DNA of 40,387 nt from Bacteroidales bacterium (GTDB taxonomy: Bacteria; Bacteroidota; Bacteroidia; Bacteroidales; UBA7960): contig PWLF01000252.1 in assembly GCA_003559475.1 (NCBI GenBank), positions 1 to 40,387 of the forward strand, written 5' to 3'. Below are positions 5,442 through 38,028 of this stretch, piece by piece. Numbering within the stretch: position 1 is the first letter of the stretch; each line of letters starts with the position of its first letter. The notes under the pieces are model-generated. The model saw only the letters and a list, made by a program, of their open reading frames with translations, did no database searches and had not been told where the DNA came from. The translations under genes and the position numbers were made by a program.

Positions 5442-6965
5442 ATGGCTATTATTAATTCAATCTTATCTTGGTACTTTAAAAAACGTGTTAGTCAAATTGA
5501 ACGATTTACTAAGTTTCCTAGTGAAGTTCAAAATGATTTATTATTAAATTTAGTAAAAACCGCACGCAATACAGAGTTTGGCAAAAAATATGAATTCTCA
5601 TCTATAAAAAAGTACACTGATTTTAAAGAAAGAGTTCCGCTAAACGAATATGATAATATTAAGCCTTATATTAATAGACTTATAAAAGGAGAAAAAAATT
5701 TACTTTGGCCGGGTGAAATTAAATGGTTTGCGAAATCATCAGGAACTACAAGCGATAGAAGTAAGTATATCCCCGTAACTTCAGAATCTCTTAACGATTG
5801 CCATTATACAGGTGGCAGAGATGTTTTGAGTATTTTTTGCAACAACCGCCCAAATACCTTAATTTTTGATGGAAAAGGTTTAACTATAGGAGGAAGTCAC
5901 AATGTTAGTGAACTTAATAAAGAATCTTATTGTGGAGACCTTTCTGCTATATTACTACAAAATATGCCGTTTTGGGCAGAAATGCTGAGAACTCCTGACT
6001 TGTCTGTTGCTCTTATGAGTGACTGGGAAAAGAAACTTGATAGAATAGCAAAACAAACTATTACCAAAAATGTAACCAACATTAGTGGAGTACCTTCATG
6101 GAATTTAGTATTATTTAAAAAAATATTGAACATTACCGGCAGAAACAACCTACTGGAAGTATGGCCAAACCTGGAACTTATGATACATGGAGGCGTTAGT
6201 TTTATACCATACAGAGATCAATTTAAAAAAATAATACCCTCAGATGACATGTATTATCTTGAAACATATAATGCTTCTGAAGGATTTTTTGCCATACAAG
6301 ATAGACCTAACTCTGATGAAATGTTATTAATGCTTGACTATGGAATTTTTTATGAATTTATTCCTATGGAGGATGTTGGAAAAGAGAACCCAACAGTATT
6401 ATCTCTTGATCAAGTAGAAAAAGGAAAGAATTATGCAATTCTAATTTCGACAAATGGGGGGCTGTGGAGATATTTAATTGGAGATACCGTATATATATCA
6501 GATACTAACCCATACCGAATTAAAGTTTCCGGAAGAACAAAAAATTTCATTAATGCTTTTGGAGAAGAAGTTATAGTTGATAATGTTGACAAGGCTCTTA
6601 ATAATGCATGTAAGTTTGCTGATGCAATAATTAAAGAATATACCGGCGCTCCTATTTTTTTAAATGATAAAAGAAATGCCGCTCACGAGTATTTGATTGA
6701 ATTTGAAAAACAACCGGAAAATGTGGAAGTCTTTGCAAAAGTCTTTGACAAAGAATTAAGAGCAATTAATTCTGATTATGAAGCAAAGAGAAGCAAAGAT
6801 ATTATGCTGAAAAACCTTATTGTTCATGATATGCCCGAAGGAACTTTCTACAGGTGGATGAAAAAACGCGGGAAAATTGGGGGACAAAATAAAGTGCCAC
6901 GACTATTTAATAATAGAAAATATGTTGATGATATTCTCGCTTTTAGTCAAACGCCTGCTAAGTAA
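5442..6965 (+). CDS. GH3 auxin-responsive promoter family protein (acyl-adenylate-forming superfamily)
   Basis: GH3 hallmarks: FAKSSGTTSDRSKYIPVT, YNASEGFFAIQ, GGLWRYLIGDTVYI, KVSGRTKNFINAFGEEVIVDN. Confidence 0.9.
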   Translation: MAIINSILSWYFKKRVSQIERFTKFPSEVQNDLLLNLVKTARNTEFGKKYEFSSIKKYTDFKERVPLNEYDNIKPYINRLIKGEKNLLWPGEIKWFAKSSGTTSDRSKYIPVTSESLNDCHYTGGRDVLSIFCNNRPNTLIFDGKGLTIGGSHNVSELNKESYCGDLSAILLQNMPFWAEMLRTPDLSVALMSDWEKKLDRIAKQTITKNVTNISGVPSWNLVLFKKILNITGRNNLLEVWPNLELMIHGGVSFIPYRDQFKKIIPSDDMYYLETYNASEGFFAIQDRPNSDEMLLMLDYGIFYEFIPMEDVGKENPTVLSLDQVEKGKNYAILISTNGGLWRYLIGDTVYISDTNPYRIKVSGRTKNFINAFGEEVIVDNVDKALNNACKFADAIIKEYTGAPIFLNDKRNAAHEYLIEFEKQPENVEVFAKVFDKELRAINSDYEAKRSKDIMLKNLIVHDMPEGTFYRWMKKRGKIGGQNKVPRLFNNRKYVDDILAFSQTPAK

Positions 6966-8483: not shown

Positions 8484-9242
8484 ATGCAATATATTGGTGT
8501 TATCCCTGCAAGATATGACTCTACGCGCTTCCCGGGCAAACCCCTGGCTAATATCAGAGGTAAAAGCATGATACAAAGAGTATATGAACAAGCATCTAAA
8601 GCGCCTAATCTTAAAAAAGTTATTGTTGCTACTGACGATAAACGTATAGAAGAACATGTTAAAGAGTTTAATGGTGTAGTTGTTATGACCAAAAAAATAC
8701 ACCAAAGCGGAACCGAAAGATGTGGGGAAGTTGCATGCAAACTTTTTAAGTCAAATAGAATATCAAAAAATGATATTATTGTAAATATTCAAGGAGATGA
8801 ACCATTTATTGAACCAAAACAAATCAATAAATTAACTGATGTTTTTTGCGATAATAAAATTCAAATTGCAACCCTTATTAAAGAGATTAGGAATTATGAC
8901 GAGCTTTTTAATGAAAATTGTGTAAAAGTTGTAATTGACAATTACTCAAAAGCCCTATATTTCAGTAGACAACCAATACCATTTTACAAAAATTCAAATA
9001 AAAATAAATGGCTTGACAATATGAAATATTTTTCTCATGTGGGAATGTATGCATACAGAGTTGATACACTATTTAATATTGTAAAACTAAAACAATCGAA
9101 CATTGAAATAGCAGAAAGTCTTGAACAGCTTAGATGGTTATTTTTTGGTTATAAAATTCATGCTGAAATAACTGATGGCAATAATTATTCAATTGATAAT
9201 AAGAAAGATATTGATAATATCCCTGAAAGCTTTTTTTGTTAA
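8484..9242 (+). CDS. kdsB: 3-deoxy-manno-octulosonate cytidylyltransferase
   Basis: GVIPARYDSTRFPGKPLANIRGKSMIQRVYEQA; VNIQGDEPFIEP; YFSRQPIPF; HVGMYAYR. Confidence 0.93.
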   Translation: MQYIGVIPARYDSTRFPGKPLANIRGKSMIQRVYEQASKAPNLKKVIVATDDKRIEEHVKEFNGVVVMTKKIHQSGTERCGEVACKLFKSNRISKNDIIVNIQGDEPFIEPKQINKLTDVFCDNKIQIATLIKEIRNYDELFNENCVKVVIDNYSKALYFSRQPIPFYKNSNKNKWLDNMKYFSHVGMYAYRVDTLFNIVKLKQSNIEIAESLEQLRWLFFGYKIHAEITDGNNYSIDNKKDIDNIPESFFC

Positions 9243-12817: not shown

Positions 12818-13828
12818 ATGGAAGAATATCTTAAGGATGTTTTCAACAAGTTTAGCAATTTGAAAGTATTGATAATTGGGGATGTTATGATAGATTCTTA
12901 TTTGTGGGGAAGTGTAGATAGAATATCTCCCGAAGCTCCTGTACCTATTGTAGCAGTTAAAAAACGTGAAAATCGTTTGGGGGGAGCAGCAAATGTTGCT
13001 CTTAATGCTAAAAGCCTGGGTGCTAAACCCTTTCTTTGCTCAATTGTAGGACAAGATGATAAAAGCTCTATATTTTACGAATTAATGGATAAAGAAAACC
13101 TGGATACCTCAGGTATGATTAAAAGCCCTCATAGACTTACAACTACTAAATTCAGAGTAATTGGAAATAACAATCAAATGCTGAGAGTTGATGAAGAGTC
13201 TCTTATTGATTTGCAAAATAATGAGATGACGCAATTGACTAAGGCGGTTAAACTCATTGTTGAAAAAGAAAAAATTGATGTAATTATTTTTGAAGATTAT
13301 GATAAAGGTGTAATATCTCATGAATTAATACTTGCTGTTACTAATTTGGCAAATGACCAGGGAATTCCTGTAGTAGTTGATCCCAAGAAGAACAACTTTT
13401 TGTTTTACAGAAATGTGGATATTTTTAAACCTAATTTGAAAGAATTAGAGGAGGGGTTGAATATAGAAATTGATAAAAATGATAAATCAGCGATTGAAGA
13501 TTCCATAATAAAGCTTTTTGAAAAAATTAATGCAAAAAACATCTTGCTTACATTGTCTGATAAGGGTATGGTCTTTGCCAGTAATAAGAGCAAAACTGAA
13601 GACTATTCTTTCAAATGGATGCCCGCTCATGCAAGACTTGCTTCTGACGTTTCAGGAGCAGGAGATACGGTAGTATCTGTGGTTGCATTATGTGCAGCCG
13701 TTAATATGGATTACGAACTTTTGACTAAACTATCAAACCTTGCAGGAGGAATAGTCTGTGAAGAGGTAGGAGTAGTTCCTATTGACAAAAACAAACTGCT
13801 AAAGAAAGCTATTGAGAATATAATATAA
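12818..13828 (+). CDS. rfaE1: PfkB-family D-glycero-beta-D-manno-heptose-7-phosphate kinase
   Basis: VLIIGDVMIDSYLWGSVDRISPEAPVPIVAVKKRENRLGGAANVALNAKSLGA; C-terminal DVSGAGDTVVSVVAL. Confidence 0.9.
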   Translation: MEEYLKDVFNKFSNLKVLIIGDVMIDSYLWGSVDRISPEAPVPIVAVKKRENRLGGAANVALNAKSLGAKPFLCSIVGQDDKSSIFYELMDKENLDTSGMIKSPHRLTTTKFRVIGNNNQMLRVDEESLIDLQNNEMTQLTKAVKLIVEKEKIDVIIFEDYDKGVISHELILAVTNLANDQGIPVVVDPKKNNFLFYRNVDIFKPNLKELEEGLNIEIDKNDKSAIEDSIIKLFEKINAKNILLTLSDKGMVFASNKSKTEDYSFKWMPAHARLASDVSGAGDTVVSVVALCAAVNMDYELLTKLSNLAGGIVCEEVGVVPIDKNKLLKKAIENII

Positions 13829-28478: not shown

Positions 28479-29294
28479 ATGAAAGAGATTGAAATTAGTG
28501 TAAATGAAGCCTGGAATAATACTGACTTGTTAAAAGAAAAAACCTATGTTGAAAAGATAAAAGAAGTCATTAGTCTTCTTGACCAAGGCAAATTGCGTGT
28601 TGCATCGCCTTCTTCTGATGGTTGGATAGTTAATGAGTGGGTTAAGAAAGCCGTTGTTATGTATTTTCGCATTGCAGAGATGCAGACCTTAAAAGAAGGA
28701 ATTTTTGAGTTTCATGATAAAATACCATTAAAAGGGAATTACTCTGAAAAGGGAGTTCGTGTTGTTCCTCACGCAATATCACGCTATGGTTCATATTTAG
28801 CAAAAGGAGTTATAATGATGCCTTCGTATGTTAACATTGGAGCTTACGTTGACAGTGGAACTATGGTAGATACCTGGGCAACTGTCGGGTCATGTGCTCA
28901 AATAGGCAAGAATGTTCATTTAAGTGGTGGAGTTGGTATAGGAGGTGTTCTTGAACCATTGCAAGCAGCACCGGTTATTATTGAAGATGGTTGTTTTGTC
29001 GGGTCGCGGTCAATAGTAGTAGAGGGGGCGAAAATTGGCAAAGAAGCAGTCTTAGGTGCTAATGTTGTTATCACAAAATCAACGAAAATTATAGATGTTA
29101 CTCAAAGTGAGCCTATATATTATAACGCCGAAGTTCCTCCGAGAAAAGTTGTAATCCCGGGCTCATATACAAAAAAGTTTGCTGCAGGTGAATTTCAAGT
29201 TCCTTGCGCACTTATTATCGGAGAAAGAAAAGAGTCAACCGACCTAAAAACCTCACTGAATGACGCATTAAGAGAATTTGGAGTGGCAGTATAA
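28479..29294 (+). CDS. dapD: 2,3,4,5-tetrahydropyridine-2,6-dicarboxylate N-succinyltransferase
   Basis: Left-handed beta-helix hexapeptides: GVIMMPSYVNIGAYVDSGTMVDTWATVGSCAQIGKNVHLSGGVGIGGVLEPLQAAPVIIEDGCFVGSRSIVVEG. Confidence 0.95.
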   Translation: MKEIEISVNEAWNNTDLLKEKTYVEKIKEVISLLDQGKLRVASPSSDGWIVNEWVKKAVVMYFRIAEMQTLKEGIFEFHDKIPLKGNYSEKGVRVVPHAISRYGSYLAKGVIMMPSYVNIGAYVDSGTMVDTWATVGSCAQIGKNVHLSGGVGIGGVLEPLQAAPVIIEDGCFVGSRSIVVEGAKIGKEAVLGANVVITKSTKIIDVTQSEPIYYNAEVPPRKVVIPGSYTKKFAAGEFQVPCALIIGERKESTDLKTSLNDALREFGVAV

Positions 29295-29394: not shown

Positions 29395-30486
29395 ATGAAA
29401 ATTTTATTTATTCATACGATAGGAAAAAATAAATATGGCGGAGGGGAAAGATGGGTTGTAAATGCTGCGGCTGCTTTAAAAAACAGAGGGCACGAGGTTT
29501 TTGTAGGTAGCAAAAAAAACTCAAAAATACTTAAGGAAGCTTCTGAAAAAGGTGTTAATACAGTTAACTTCAATATACTTAGCGATTTAAGTATATATAT
29601 GGCTATCAAAATATCGCGATTTCTAAAAAAACACAAAATTGATGTTGTTATAAGCAAAAGACGAGATTTGGCTGTTTCAGGGATGGCTGCCAAATTGGGA
29701 ACACATCCTGTAGTTTTGGTAAGAAGCGGCTCACCACCGCAACGAAGTATAAAAAAGCACCTTTTTATTATTGAAAAATTTTCTGATGGAATTATTACTA
29801 ATACCAAAACCATTAAAGATTTTTACTACCTAAAAGGATTAAACAAAAAAATTGATATAAATGTCATTTATAATGGATTAAATATTAATGATTCTGTGAA
29901 GGCTAAAAATTTTAAAGAAGATTTTGGTGAGAAAAAAATTATACTTAGTGTTGGCAGATTATCAGCAGAAAAAGGCTATAATTATCTTCTGGAAGCAGCT
30001 TCGATATTAAAAGAAAAGAGAAATGACCTGATTTTTTATATTGTCGGAGATGGAAAGCTTAAAGAAAAACTTCTTTATCATGTTGATAAAAATAAGTTGA
30101 ATGACATTGTTTATTTTGCAGGATATAAAGAACCGATAACCCCACATTTAAAAGGATGTGATATTTTTGTGCTTCCATCATTGTATGAAGGTATGCCAAA
30201 TTCAGCTATGGAAGCTATGGCTTATGGGAAACCGGTTATTATGACTAAGGTAAATGGAGCAGAAGAACTGTCGGATAACGGCAAGCATGCTTTTTTGATA
30301 CCACCGAAAGACCACAATGCCATTGCAAATGCAATATTAAGTGTTTTAAATGACAAAGAAAAAAGTGAAAAAGTTGCAGAAGACGCAAAAAGTTTTGTGC
30401 GAAGTAAATTTACAATGAGTTGTATGACAGATAATTTAGAAAATTTAATCATAAATAAATATAACGCTAAGAAAAAAAATAAATAA
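29395..30486 (+). CDS. Glycosyltransferase family 4 protein
   Basis: KILFIHTIGKNKYGGGERWVVNAAAALKNRGHEVFVGS; ILSVGRLSAEKGYNYLLEAA; FVLPSLYEGMPNSAMEAMAYGKPVIMTKVNGAEELSDNG. Confidence 0.92.
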   Translation: MKILFIHTIGKNKYGGGERWVVNAAAALKNRGHEVFVGSKKNSKILKEASEKGVNTVNFNILSDLSIYMAIKISRFLKKHKIDVVISKRRDLAVSGMAAKLGTHPVVLVRSGSPPQRSIKKHLFIIEKFSDGIITNTKTIKDFYYLKGLNKKIDINVIYNGLNINDSVKAKNFKEDFGEKKIILSVGRLSAEKGYNYLLEAASILKEKRNDLIFYIVGDGKLKEKLLYHVDKNKLNDIVYFAGYKEPITPHLKGCDIFVLPSLYEGMPNSAMEAMAYGKPVIMTKVNGAEELSDNGKHAFLIPPKDHNAIANAILSVLNDKEKSEKVAEDAKSFVRSKFTMSCMTDNLENLIINKYNAKKKNK

Positions 30487-30496
30487 TAATTTACAG

Positions 30497-30916
30497 ATGA
30501 TAATTACAGGCAAACATGTTCATGGTATAGGGGGAGCTAAAAGATCGGTCAAAAGACAAAAACAAAAATTTGCAAAACTTGGCTTGCTCGGGGCAGAAAG
30601 TTTTTATGATGGTACAATTAACCTGAATACCTTGCCAAAAAAGTATAAAGTAATTAACTATGATTATTTTTTTAAAGATGTAGTTCATCGTTTTTTTCCA
30701 ACAATAAAAAAAGAGAGTTTTGGATTTATAGAAATTATCGAACTTGAGCATTGTAATAAGAAGTATGATAATTGGGGATATATTTATTTTCCCCAAAAAA
30801 GTCCCCATATAGGGAAGCCGGGATTTTTTGAGTTAATTGGCAGGAAAATAGACTCCTTTAATTATAATGACAGCTTTAAGCTAACTATAAAAGATGGTTT
30901 GATAAAAGAGATTTAA
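30497..30916 (+). CDS. Small protein resembling the DUF120 / archaeal CTP-dependent riboflavin kinase fold
   Basis: N-terminal IITGKHVHGIGGAK (G-x-V-x-G-x-G-like), LGLLGAESFYDGTINLNTLP (pyxGTLNl-like), GYIYFPQKSPHIGKPGFFELIG (vPxxsxHxxxxiEliAP-like). Confidence 0.5.
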   Translation: MIITGKHVHGIGGAKRSVKRQKQKFAKLGLLGAESFYDGTINLNTLPKKYKVINYDYFFKDVVHRFFPTIKKESFGFIEIIELEHCNKKYDNWGYIYFPQKSPHIGKPGFFELIGRKIDSFNYNDSFKLTIKDGLIKEI

Positions 30917-30918
30917 GA

Positions 30919-32541
30919 TTAATTTTTATTGATATTCTTTTCAGAAAAGTTCTTTTCTTTTTCAAGGCTTTTAGGATAAATAAAGCAGAAAAATAAGGTA
31001 AAGAATACAAATAAAGTTTGCCCATATTGTGCTTCTATAGGATTATTGCCTAACATATTAGCTGCAAATGCGACTAAAAACACATTAAATGCTAAGAATT
31101 TATATGCTTTACTTTTAATTATTGTATATGTGTATAAAGCAATAAACGCTATTAATCCTATTACTCCCAGTCGAATTAAATAAACCAGATATTGGTTATG
31201 AGGTTTTTTTTCGTATCCACGTAATCCGGATTGATTATTTTCAAGACCAAAAACAACGGCATTATAAATTTCCCCTGTACCCCATCCAATTATAGGTCTT
31301 TCTTGAAATGCATTAAAAGATCCCTTCCAGAGATCTACTCTTTGAGTTAATGTACTTGGCATAGGGTCATTGGTATTTCGATAATCATGAATTCCCGACA
31401 TAGTGTGATGTATCCTTGCCAATATCCCGGGCCAATTTTTATACAAATGATTAGTTATTCCATTTTCTATTGCAGAAATATCATCATCATTTAGCATATA
31501 AACATGCTCTTTATCCTTTTTTAATAATCCTTTAGATGACATGTATCTAAATAGAACATCTCTTAAATTAGTACCTGCATGAGTTTTACCAAAATACTTA
31601 AGTTCGCTCCTCTCCTCCCATGCTTTTTTTAGTTCTTCTTCTGCAATATTAATATATACCAGATTGCCATTCTCGCGAAGGGGGTTGCTTAAATCATGAA
31701 AATATGGAGTCCCTGCTTTGGTATATTTTTCTATTAAAAAAGCGTCTTCATCATTTTTATCATAATAAGTTATATTGTACATGTATATTATACCCCATAC
31801 TGAAATAATTGAAAATCCTACAAATAGTAGTCCTAAAACAGATTTTAAAACTATGCTTTTATTATATATAATTACATATACTGTTAAAAATGCCATTACA
31901 AAAAATAATGATATTAATCCTGATAACGATCTTAACATTAACAAAAATATTATCATCCATATTGACAAAAGAATAGATATAAAAAACCAATATTTTTTAT
32001 CAGATATTTGTTTGACAAGCCATGGCAAGAAAAATGCTGCCATTATCAACATAATACTAACATATAAATGAGAAGCAAAAAGGGTTAAATCTCGAAAACC
32101 AATATTAGTATAATACAATTGCAAGAAAAGACCAATAAAAGAAACTAGCAAAACACTGCCAATAAAGAAAAACAAAACCATTCTGCTTTTTTTGATGTCT
32201 AATGCCGGAGATGTGACAATAATAAGGGTTAAAGTTAAAATCGGCAGATTAGTTTTAAGTACAGAACTAACACCCATCGAAGGGTTTGAAGACCATGCCA
32301 ATCCTATAACTGAAAGAAAGAAAATTGATATAAAAGCAAGTGCAGCTTTATTATTAAAGAGAATACTAAATTTCTTCTTGAATTGACCTTCGGCTAACCA
32401 ATTTGCTCCTAAAAGTATCTGTGCTATACTTATACCCGTTCTTGAAGTAGGCATAGAAATTACCAGCAAACATAAGCCGATAAAATATATCCATAAATGA
32501 ATTGATTGTCTTGAAAAAAAAGATTCTTTTACCTTATCCAT
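30919..32541 (-). CDS. O-antigen ligase/polymerase family multi-TM protein
   Basis: Multiple TM helices; NAFQERPIIGWGTGEIYNAV...KKPHNQYLVYLIRLGVIGLIAF motif typical of Wzy_C/O-antigen ligase. Confidence 0.88.
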   Translation of the reverse strand: MDKVKESFFSRQSIHLWIYFIGLCLLVISMPTSRTGISIAQILLGANWLAEGQFKKKFSILFNNKAALAFISIFFLSVIGLAWSSNPSMGVSSVLKTNLPILTLTLIIVTSPALDIKKSRMVLFFFIGSVLLVSFIGLFLQLYYTNIGFRDLTLFASHLYVSIMLIMAAFFLPWLVKQISDKKYWFFISILLSIWMIIFLLMLRSLSGLISLFFVMAFLTVYVIIYNKSIVLKSVLGLLFVGFSIISVWGIIYMYNITYYDKNDEDAFLIEKYTKAGTPYFHDLSNPLRENGNLVYINIAEEELKKAWEERSELKYFGKTHAGTNLRDVLFRYMSSKGLLKKDKEHVYMLNDDDISAIENGITNHLYKNWPGILARIHHTMSGIHDYRNTNDPMPSTLTQRVDLWKGSFNAFQERPIIGWGTGEIYNAVVFGLENNQSGLRGYEKKPHNQYLVYLIRLGVIGLIAFIALYTYTIIKSKAYKFLAFNVFLVAFAANMLGNNPIEAQYGQTLFVFFTLFFCFIYPKSLEKEKNFSEKNINKN

Positions 32542-34587: not shown

Positions 34588-35085
34588 TTAATCCCTGTCC
34601 AGTATTTTTATGCTAATACCTTTTACCGTTTGCCAGCCTTCTTTATCTGTCAAGCTGACAAAAAAATGGTAATCACCGGTATCCACATCGTTGGGGATAA
34701 ATATTGTGTCATTCGCATCATACTTCTTGCTTCCGGATGGTATATCGTAAGTTTCAATAAAAACAAATACGTCTTCTGTTGGTTCTTTTTGAGGATCAAG
34801 TTCACAATGTTCAGGTTGTGTTGAATGTGTATGGTGATCAAAATTGTGATGTATATCAATGCTGTATGCTCCCAACTCATTATTATCGGTAAATGTAGCC
34901 TTAAACACAAAAGCTTCGCCGATATAAACCGTATCACAATTGGCCGGATTATGATTTTCGGCTGACATATCTATAGCAGGAGGGATATCGTCTTTATCCT
35001 CTTTTTCACAAGAAATAATTAATAGTATTAACATTAAAATCAATGTGTGGTATTTATATGTACTCATATTTAATATATTTTGCAT
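34588..35085 (-). CDS. His-rich DUF4625-like lipoprotein
   Basis: LILLIISCEKEDKDDIPPAID lipobox; AYSIDIHHNFDHHTHSTQPEHCEL; GDYHFFVSLTDKEGWQTVKGISIKI. Confidence 0.75.
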   Translation of the reverse strand: MQNILNMSTYKYHTLILMLILLIISCEKEDKDDIPPAIDMSAENHNPANCDTVYIGEAFVFKATFTDNNELGAYSIDIHHNFDHHTHSTQPEHCELDPQKEPTEDVFVFIETYDIPSGSKKYDANDTIFIPNDVDTGDYHFFVSLTDKEGWQTVKGISIKILDRD

Positions 35086-35122
35086 GTTAGTATTAGGTTC
35101 TAATTTTTTATTATCACAAAAC

Positions 35123-35148
35123 CAGGCACTACATGAATATGGTGCCTG
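35123..35148 (-). terminator. Hairpin between the two DUF4625-like genes (attenuator/terminator candidate)
   Basis: CAGGCAC (35123-35129) / GTGCCTG (35142-35148), followed by GTTTTGTG on the minus strand. Confidence 0.45.
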
Positions 35149-35184
35149 ATTTTATGATATTTATTCATTAAACACCACAGCTTT

Positions 35185-35634
35185 TTATTCTTTTTTAATC
35201 TCTAAATCATCATGAATTTCGGCTGTATAACCTTCTTTGTCAATCACCTTAAAGTGAAAATGATATTCCCCGGGTTTAGCATTTTTAGGAATGTCCACAT
35301 GCTTATGAAAATGGGTGTTACGTAATCCCTGGTATTCGTCAAACACAAACTCCATTTCAGTTATCTCATCATCATGTACTATAAGATTTTTGTGATATTT
35401 ATGACTGTGTCCGCATTCATAATGTATATCAACAATAATCTTGTCAATCCGATTTGATGCTTCAACATCTGCCTCAATATGAAGGTCGTTGCCCCTGATT
35501 ACAGTTTTACTGTTGTGATGCCCTATTTCCAAATTTTTAATAATCGGTTTTTTATTGTTGTCATCTTTATCACAGCTGTTTATAGAAATAAATACAACTG
35601 CAAATGCTAATAATAATACTATTTGTTTTTTCAT
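35185..35634 (-). CDS. His-rich DUF4625-like lipoprotein
   Basis: VFISINSCDKDDNNKKPIIKNLEIGHHN lipobox; IVDIHYECGHSHKYHKNLIVHDDE; NTHFHKHVDIPKNAKPGEYHFHFKVIDKEGY. Confidence 0.78.
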   Translation of the reverse strand: MKKQIVLLLAFAVVFISINSCDKDDNNKKPIIKNLEIGHHNSKTVIRGNDLHIEADVEASNRIDKIIVDIHYECGHSHKYHKNLIVHDDEITEMEFVFDEYQGLRNTHFHKHVDIPKNAKPGEYHFHFKVIDKEGYTAEIHDDLEIKKE

Positions 35635-35646
35635 ATTCTTAAATTT

Positions 35647-38028
35647 TTAAATTTTAAAAGGTATTTTAATTGAAATATTAAAGTTTCTTCCGGGTTCGGG
35701 CACTCCGATTAATCTATAGTAACTTGTATGGTTTAAATAATTATGGTTGAACACATTATTTATATTGAAATATATATCAAAATTTTCATCCAATATATTT
35801 GCACTTGTACCTATAGAAATATTAAAGACCCTGTATCCCGGAGTTTTTTGTTCCGGCGGAACAATAAGGTTTTGTGCTGCCGTTATCCGGCAATTTGCTT
35901 CAATAAAAGCTTTCGTAAACCTGCCTATACTACCGTGTTCATACCTGATGTTTAGTATAGCTGAAGCCGGTGGCGAAAATGGTATTGTAAACCCTTCTTT
36001 GTCGCCCGACATTTGAACAGAATAAACATACTCTGCTGTTATACCTGCTTTTAAAGCCGGCAAAATATTATATCCACTATACAGTTCACCGCCAACTCTT
36101 CCAACTTCTGTAGAAGTATAATTGAATATCTGGTTACCTGCTCCATAATTATAATCGTATCTATATGACGGATTCAGGTAAATATAATTAGGAAAATAAC
36201 TTACAAAAGGGCTAAACATAAAATTATAATTACCCGATTTGTATTCAATTCCCAAATCCATCTGGTATGCTACTTCAGGTTTTAAAGTTGTATCGCCTTT
36301 TTCATAACTAAAGAGGTGATAGTTAACACCGTTTGCAGCCAATTCTTTGGCTGTTGGCACACGAAAGCTTTTTCCTGCATTTATCCTAAAAGATATATCA
36401 TCATTACTATAATTAAATCCAGCTGCACCACTGATGCTTGAAAAATTTCTACTCAACCCGGGCGCCCGTTTAAGAAATTCACCATTGGTCATATACCAAT
36501 CATAATATTTCCTTGTTTCTAAATTGCTGAAATCATATCTCAATCCAATATTAAACACCGAATTATCATTAATTATCCACTCATCCAATACAAAAACACC
36601 GGCAGAAAACTGCCTGTATGCCGGAATTATAAAATTCCTTCCATCTATGTCATTATTTTGCAATTCTGTGTCAATACCTGCAGATACCACATGATTGTCA
36701 CTGAATGAATAAATTGATTCAACCTTACCCGAAAATATGTTTTTACTAAACTCTCTTTCTAAGTCAGGACTAAAATCCAGCGTGTCAGGAAAAACAGCCG
36801 GCATAAAGCCATGGCTAGTAAAATTACTATATTCCCGACGAAAATTATTCTGAAAACCCAATTTCAAATTTATCAGCAACCCATTTATATATGCCCTGCT
36901 GTTGTTAATAATTTTGGTATGCTCAACCTTCTGATAGGGATTCATAATATCCCTTGAGGATTTATCATACAATTCTTTGTCAACCATCCTTGGTTCAAGT
37001 CCATGTGCATTTGCAAAAAATCCACTTTTATGGTTAACCCTGCTAAGAAAAAGCCTTGTATTCCAGCTTTGTCTTATCAGCCCGGCTGTAAGATGCATAT
37101 TCATCTCATTGCCTGCAGTATTTCTCAAACGGTTTTTATACAAAGGCACTCTGTATGAATAAATATCAACACTGTCCGTCGGAACTTTGTAATCGCCATA
37201 ACCGGTACGTGTTATACGAGAGTTTACAAAGAAACCATTTTTCCTTCCATATAGTGAAAGAGAACTTCCCAGCATGTCATTATTTGACTCGGCAACGACA
37301 TCCAGCGATCCGCCTATTGTTTCAGGTTCAGGCACGAAATTTTGTTTTATATCAATTACTCCTGAAATTGCATCTGAGCCATATTTTAATGATGCAGGTC
37401 CTTTAATAATTTCAACATTATCAGCTGCAAAACGATCAACCTCGAGCCCATGGTCGCTTCCCCATTGCTGGGCTTCATGTTTTATTCCATGCTCCGCAAC
37501 TATAAGCCTGTTGAAACCAAGTCCGCGTATAGCAGGTTTAGACTGAGCTGAGCCGATATTCATTGCTCCTATGCCGGGCAATCCTTCCAATGATTGCATA
37601 AGGCTGCCCGATTGGTTTCGCCTTATGTGTTCACTGTCAACAACTATTGTGTTGCGTGAATCCATCCGCCTCCTGCGTTCGCCATAACTGCACTCTATCA
37701 AAATTTCATTGAGTTTGCTCACTGAATGTTCCATATGTATAGTAACATAAGTGTTACGGTCAATATTAATTGAACGACTGTAGGATTTATAACCGATATA
37801 GGTAACTTTTAAGGTGTATTCTCCTTTGGGAATATTACTAAAGGAAAACCTACCTTCCAAGTTGCTTATAGTCGATTCATCCGAACATTCTCCTTCTAAG
37901 ACAACCGTTGCCCCCGGCAAAGGAATATGCTTTTGGTCTTCAACATAACCTTGCAAGTTGTATAACTGCACATTATTAGCATTGCATACACTCCATGCTA
38001 CCAGAAATAAAAGTAAATAAAACCTCAT
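35647..38028 (-). CDS. TonB-dependent receptor with N-terminal CarboxypepD_reg-like domain
   Basis: LQGYVEDQKHIPLPGATVVLEGECSDESTISNLEGRFSFSNIPKGEYTLKVTYIGYKSYS; plug motif GLPGIGAMNIGSAQSKPAIRGLGFNRLIVAEHGIKHEAQQWGSDHGLEVDRFAADNVEIIKGPASLKYGSDAISGVIDI. Confidence 0.95.
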   Translation of the reverse strand: MRFYLLLFLVAWSVCNANNVQLYNLQGYVEDQKHIPLPGATVVLEGECSDESTISNLEGRFSFSNIPKGEYTLKVTYIGYKSYSRSINIDRNTYVTIHMEHSVSKLNEILIECSYGERRRRMDSRNTIVVDSEHIRRNQSGSLMQSLEGLPGIGAMNIGSAQSKPAIRGLGFNRLIVAEHGIKHEAQQWGSDHGLEVDRFAADNVEIIKGPASLKYGSDAISGVIDIKQNFVPEPETIGGSLDVVAESNNDMLGSSLSLYGRKNGFFVNSRITRTGYGDYKVPTDSVDIYSYRVPLYKNRLRNTAGNEMNMHLTAGLIRQSWNTRLFLSRVNHKSGFFANAHGLEPRMVDKELYDKSSRDIMNPYQKVEHTKIINNSRAYINGLLINLKLGFQNNFRREYSNFTSHGFMPAVFPDTLDFSPDLEREFSKNIFSGKVESIYSFSDNHVVSAGIDTELQNNDIDGRNFIIPAYRQFSAGVFVLDEWIINDNSVFNIGLRYDFSNLETRKYYDWYMTNGEFLKRAPGLSRNFSSISGAAGFNYSNDDISFRINAGKSFRVPTAKELAANGVNYHLFSYEKGDTTLKPEVAYQMDLGIEYKSGNYNFMFSPFVSYFPNYIYLNPSYRYDYNYGAGNQIFNYTSTEVGRVGGELYSGYNILPALKAGITAEYVYSVQMSGDKEGFTIPFSPPASAILNIRYEHGSIGRFTKAFIEANCRITAAQNLIVPPEQKTPGYRVFNISIGTSANILDENFDIYFNINNVFNHNYLNHTSYYRLIGVPEPGRNFNISIKIPFKI

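Follow-up and report, generated by a model that had tools for sequence, protein, structure and literature searches.

The window, a stretch of 40,387 nt from a Bacteroidales bacterium, contains an ORF with an ATG start at 30497–30916 (+) encoding a protein of 139 aa, which is RibK-like by its fold match to MJ0056 and by a profile–profile match to RibK. The ORF is real, as a chance ORF is ruled out by the conservation of homologues. It starts 10 nt past the stop of a GT4 glycosyltransferase gene (29395–30486, +; PF00534, E = 7e-43) and ends 2 nt short of the end of a convergent O-antigen ligase gene (Wzy_C; 30919–32541, −; PF04932, E = 1e-12), a resident neighbor with the same position in relatives. 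A dapD-like tetrahydrodipicolinate N-succinyltransferase gene (28479–29294, +; PF14805) lies outside the cassette described below; by synteny, it flanks the locus in some relatives (G297, G299, G306, and G330). The ORF, the spacing of 10 nt, and the ligase neighbor are all as described in a sequence-only reading of this DNA that preceded our analysis. All three motifs that it named were found in the protein as well: the glycine-rich start (G5...G10-x-G12-G13), YDGTINLN (residues 37–44), and P-x-x-S-x-H...FELI (residues 99–114, with P-x-x-S-P-H). An antisense ORF of 105 aa also lies inside this stretch (30491–30808, −).

Other LPS-type genes of the window encode KdsB (3-deoxy-manno-octulosonate cytidylyltransferase; 8484–9242, +; E = 4e-67) and, at 12818–13828 (+), a domain of the HldE-type heptose-7-phosphate kinase that scores just under its cut-off. 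A GH3-like protein at 5442–6965 (+) resembles the lyso-ornithine lipid synthetase OlsH (E = 1e-124, under the curated cut-off of that family). Just downstream of a TonB-receptor-like gene (35647–38028, −), at 34588–35634 (−), are two adjacent genes for short proteins that have N-termini like those of lipoproteins and stretches rich in His; they are perhaps concerned with metal uptake.

Homologues and the conserved GT4 neighbor

Homologues of the RibK-like protein with 46–59% identity are present in eight other MAGs. Five of 97 relatives of the window genome carry one (47–59% identity), and all five belong to the same family. A scan of GTDB species genomes gave eight RibK-like loci, namely, those five together with three new ones on contigs titled Ignavibacteriales (L012 and L013) and Bacteroidetes (L010). 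The nine close members all keep G39-T40-I41-N42, H104, and E112. Two far relatives (G179 and G580), which are 22–28% identical to the window protein, come from another class of the phylum. No further close members turned up among 396 genomes sampled from the phylum or 344 from the order. The RibK-like family is rare and patchy. The names of the MAGs include codes (CSSed, B1Sed10, and T3Sed10) such as those given to soda lake sediment datasets (PMC6146748).

Searches of Pfam, NCBIfam, the PDB (phmmer), and a first contig scan with the single window sequence gave nothing that names the protein. Viral contigs, phages, plasmids, and PHROGs were also searched and gave no relative of the window protein, so a phage origin of the gene is without support. 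One outer-type relative sits on a plasmid of Pseudanabaena. The outer branch, of about 147–155 aa and with no GT4 neighbor, is represented at L091:4992-5453, L018:6661-7104, and L002:1405-1872, and its hosts are Pseudanabaena and two genomes of another Bacteroidota class.

Conservation of the GT4 neighbor had been suggested as a check of the sequence-only reading, and a GT4 gene was found directly upstream of the RibK-like gene in all nine close members. The two genes overlap by 4 nt in five loci and by 11 nt in one, and the gaps in the remaining three are 7, 10, and 35 nt. The six same-family genomes have the order GT4, RibK-like gene, convergent O-antigen ligase. In the three loci from outside (L010, L012, and L013), the GT4 and RibK-like genes are followed by a 2-hydroxyacid dehydrogenase gene; upstream of the GT4 gene, L013 has genes for a lipid A acyltransferase and an FkbM-type methyltransferase, the latter with a homologue in L012. 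Since the downstream neighbor varies while the GT4 gene stays, GT4 is the constant partner. Homologue conservation and synteny together rule out a chance pairing. No GT4 gene was seen beside the two outer family members.

Kinship of the protein to RibK

RibK MJ0056 is a CTP-dependent riboflavin kinase (PF01982/DUF120; PDB 2oyn, 2p3m, and 2vbs–2vbv). AlphaFold2 models were made of the window protein (7 sequences, pLDDT 84) and of the L013 homologue (11 sequences, pLDDT 88). Both predicted models have the RibK cradle-loop barrel fold by Foldseek: against the PDB, the MJ0056 entries were matched with E = 3.8e-5 to 1.6e-4, probability 1.00, and TM 0.65–0.67, and they were the only significant matches for both models, the next having E ≥ 0.1. 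The opposite outcome, no RibK match or a different fold, was thus absent. The assignment to RibK/DUF120 in the sequence-only reading therefore holds at the level of fold, for two models, but not as membership of PF01982, which matched none of the RibK-like members scanned. PF01982 was also missing from the window's genome and from 38 relatives, while four control archaea scored above the cut-off. The RibF-type flavokinase family PF01687 gave no Pfam match to the protein, and RibF-type structures appeared in Foldseek only at E = 0.7 and above.

The kinship was also examined by profile–profile comparison of 11 RibK-like members with eight sequences of RibK (MJ0056, each letter of which was checked against PDB 2p3m; TA1064; Azoarcus; and five from haloarchaea). 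The match has a score of 38.7 (P = 8.5e-6), compared with 21.8 for the best of 200 column-shuffled controls and 10.2 for the reversed profile. The nine close members alone match the RibK profile only at P = 0.01, the two outer members match RibK at 1.5e-5, and the outer members join the close ones at 5e-13. Since the close members are weak alone and the outer members form the bridge, the kinship rests on a transitive sequence link together with the predicted fold. An hmmsearch match to MJ0056 obtained with 7 sequences (E = 0.029) was lost with 11 and is not used as proof.

The residues that are kept and those that are lost can be located by alignment. Residues 39–42, G-T-I-N (30611–30622, +), are the counterpart of the G-T-L-N metal motif of RibK, and the T and N are invariant in all 19 sequences (11/11 RibK-like and 8/8 RibK). 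In the segment H...E at residues 104–112 (30806–30832, +), the His is invariant in the 11 RibK-like proteins, and the distal Glu in all 19 sequences. The T and N of the RibK motif presumably hold Mg2+, as annotated in UniProt/HAMAP, and we take the roles of T-x-N and the Glu to be in metal binding and catalysis. The size, about 136–139 aa, is also like that of MJ0056.

Two other segments differ. Residues 10–17, G-I-G-G-A-K-R-S (30524–30547, +), are aligned with the presumed nucleotide loop of RibK, G-x-G-E-G, in altered form: the first Gly is kept in most members, G-E-G has become G-G-A or K-G-A, and the two outer members differ again. The loop after the Glu, residues 112–125 (30830–30871, +), is shortened in the profile alignment, with 13 positions from the Glu to the next aligned acidic position in 11/11 RibK-like proteins and 17 in 8/8 RibK sequences. 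The four positions that are absent correspond to K-L-R-E of MJ0056 and include the invariant Arg of RibK. By UniProt/HAMAP annotation, the segment so lost and the N-terminal G-x-G-E-G loop are presumably those that touch CDP in RibK. The suggestion of CTP dependence in the sequence-only reading was accordingly not borne out, as it is precisely the presumed CTP-contacting segments that differ; with the Arg segment absent and the loop changed, CTP dependence cannot be inherited from the family name. As judged from these sequences, the RibK-like proteins are a branch separate from RibK, differing from it also in that the gene lies in a bacterial LPS locus, with RibF elsewhere in the genome.

Could the protein nevertheless be a riboflavin kinase, a second, RibK-type enzyme forming FMN that lies in an LPS cluster by chance? 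The fold and the metal residues of RibK would fit, and a RibK in a bacterium does exist: the DUF120 protein of plasmid pAZKH of Azoarcus sp. KH32C belongs, like the window protein, to the RibK fold family. However, the Azoarcus gene is part of a phenylphosphate carboxylase cluster, with UbiX on one side and a NUDIX gene on the other, and even its product keeps the Arg segment of RibK that the window protein has lost. Moreover, the window's genome encodes a RibF flavokinase domain (E = 1.4e-42), so FMN synthesis should not need the RibK-like gene, and the pairing with GT4 is constant, with no flavin genes near the locus. Hence, an ordinary riboflavin kinase is the last of the three rival explanations that we consider, and a very improbable one. 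A second, weak flavokinase-domain match was seen in the same genome (L021, G000:C223:925-1209; E = 3.8e-4). The Azoarcus DUF120 locus (L022:4974-5411) has UbiX/UbiD adjacent and may supply FMN for prenylated-FMN synthesis. To our knowledge, RibK enzymes are known from flavin metabolism only, and no other role was found in a literature search.

Two alternative partners of the GT4 gene

A search of 47 same-family genomes found orthologues of the GT4 gene in 16. The RibK-like gene follows in six of these, a gene for a protein of about 350 aa in eight, and neither in two. Of the eight loci with the 350-aa gene, five (G299, G333, G327, G321, and G315) have the convergent ligase gene next, while no ligase gene was seen on the stretch read in G304, G319, and G310. 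The 350-aa protein is a member of PF04464 (five were tested, with E between 5e-12 and 2e-18), and a PDB search with its profile retrieves TarL, Cps3D, and TagF. It is a GT-B-type protein, unrelated to the RibK-like protein, and its gene takes the identical position behind this GT4. It has invariant H104-G105 and H214, of which H104 and H214 look like the catalytic His pair of the family (PMC11666461).

Genome-wide, the RibK-like gene and the PF04464 gene were never found together in the genomes searched. By hypergeometric calculation, in which kinship between genomes is ignored, this lack of overlap has p = 0.0035, and the confinement to genomes with the GT4 has p = 7e-4. The GT4 tree shows one partner change, whereas the ligase tree needs four; on the latter, grouping the PF04464 loci in one clade is rejected (p-AU 6e-68), and the ligases of G331 and G321 are very similar yet have different partners. 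Therefore, the GT4 gene and its partner move together, and they travel as a cassette beside the resident ligase.

Transferases of the TagF/TarL-like PF04464 type transfer a polyol phosphate from a CDP-polyol, and in Cps3D, a GT4-type galactosyltransferase is combined with a TagF-like domain that places glycerol-3-phosphate on that galactose (PMC11666461). The chemistry of the PF04464 neighbor here is not certain, since TagD (TIGR01518) was not found above the cut-off in 17 genomes and the protein also matches a glycosyltransferase model, far under the cut-off. The sub-cut-off TagD matches occur with either occupant of the slot, so TagD lends no support to CDP-glycerol chemistry in the relatives.

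These results bear on the possibility that the RibK-like protein is catalytically idle, a RibK-fold accessory subunit or nucleotide sensor with the GT4 or the GT4 product as its binding partner. Its small size, the strict pairing, and the co-inheritance with the GT4 rather than with the ligase would all be expected of such a subunit, and so would the altered N-terminal loop and the missing Arg segment. However, T-x-N and the Glu, the residues expected for metal and catalysis, are invariant down to 22% identity, and GT4s of the same clade occur without the RibK-like protein, beside the PF04464 gene. This explanation thus ranks second among the rivals, and we regard it as rather unlikely.

Possible role in outer-membrane glycan synthesis

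The GT4 pairing, the slot exchange with a TagF-like gene, and the presence of RibF in the genome support the LPS setting and a substrate other than riboflavin, both of which the sequence-only reading had suggested. We infer kinase activity, an acceptor on the glycan, and comparable jobs for the two occupants of the slot: phosphotransfer is argued from the conserved metal and Glu residues, an acceptor made by the GT4 from the behavior of the cassette, and the addition of an anionic group from the attachment of polyol phosphates by the family of the other occupant. With an even balance of confidence, we suggest that the protein is a kinase of the RibK fold and that it phosphorylates the LPS sugar attached by the partner GT4. 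The protein would be a small soluble kinase that has departed from flavin metabolism. On the cytoplasmic side, an LPS core or O-chain intermediate would receive a sugar from the GT4, and the RibK-like protein would then create an anionic group by moving phosphate from a metal–nucleotide complex onto one of the hydroxyls of that sugar. In related genomes, a TagF-like polyol-phosphate transferase would provide the anionic group at the same step instead. Counted against this explanation are the two GT4 orthologues of the family that have neither partner, the outer members that lack a GT4 neighbor, the weak match of the close members alone to RibK, the lost hmmsearch match, and the uncertain chemistry of the PF04464 protein.

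The main rival is a kinase for a soluble precursor, in which a free sugar or polyol is phosphorylated and then nucleotide-activated to serve as donor, either for the GT4 or for a transferase that acts later. A small soluble protein linked to a GT4 would suit that role. RibK, as established for MJ0056, acts on the terminal hydroxyl of the ribityl chain, and a polyol-like acceptor would fit. However, no nucleotidyltransferase travels with the cassette in the loci compared, and the exchange with a TagF-like protein, from a family that works on the glycan as it grows, agrees better with a late step. Accordingly, we consider a soluble-precursor kinase unlikely, although it is the strongest of the three rivals.

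The reaction proposed for phosphorylation of the GT4-added sugar is of the same class as that of the WaaP-type LPS core kinases. WaaP has a protein-kinase-like fold and puts phosphate on an LPS sugar. The RibK-like protein gave no Pfam match to this type of LPS kinase, and its predicted fold differs.

More broadly, we tentatively view the protein as a RibK-superfamily kinase recruited to outer-membrane glycan synthesis, that is, a nucleotide-dependent (perhaps CTP-dependent) sugar or glycolipid kinase in an exchangeable GT4 cassette, where it replaces a TagF-like polyol-phosphate transferase at one locus. The slot exchange predicts that the same GT4-added sugar carries phosphate with one occupant and polyol phosphate, or a similar group, with the other. 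The RibK-like protein is missed by current family libraries, and the finding would give it a name. If true, it would be the first branch of RibK with another acceptor, and it would add a kinase fold to those of LPS modification.
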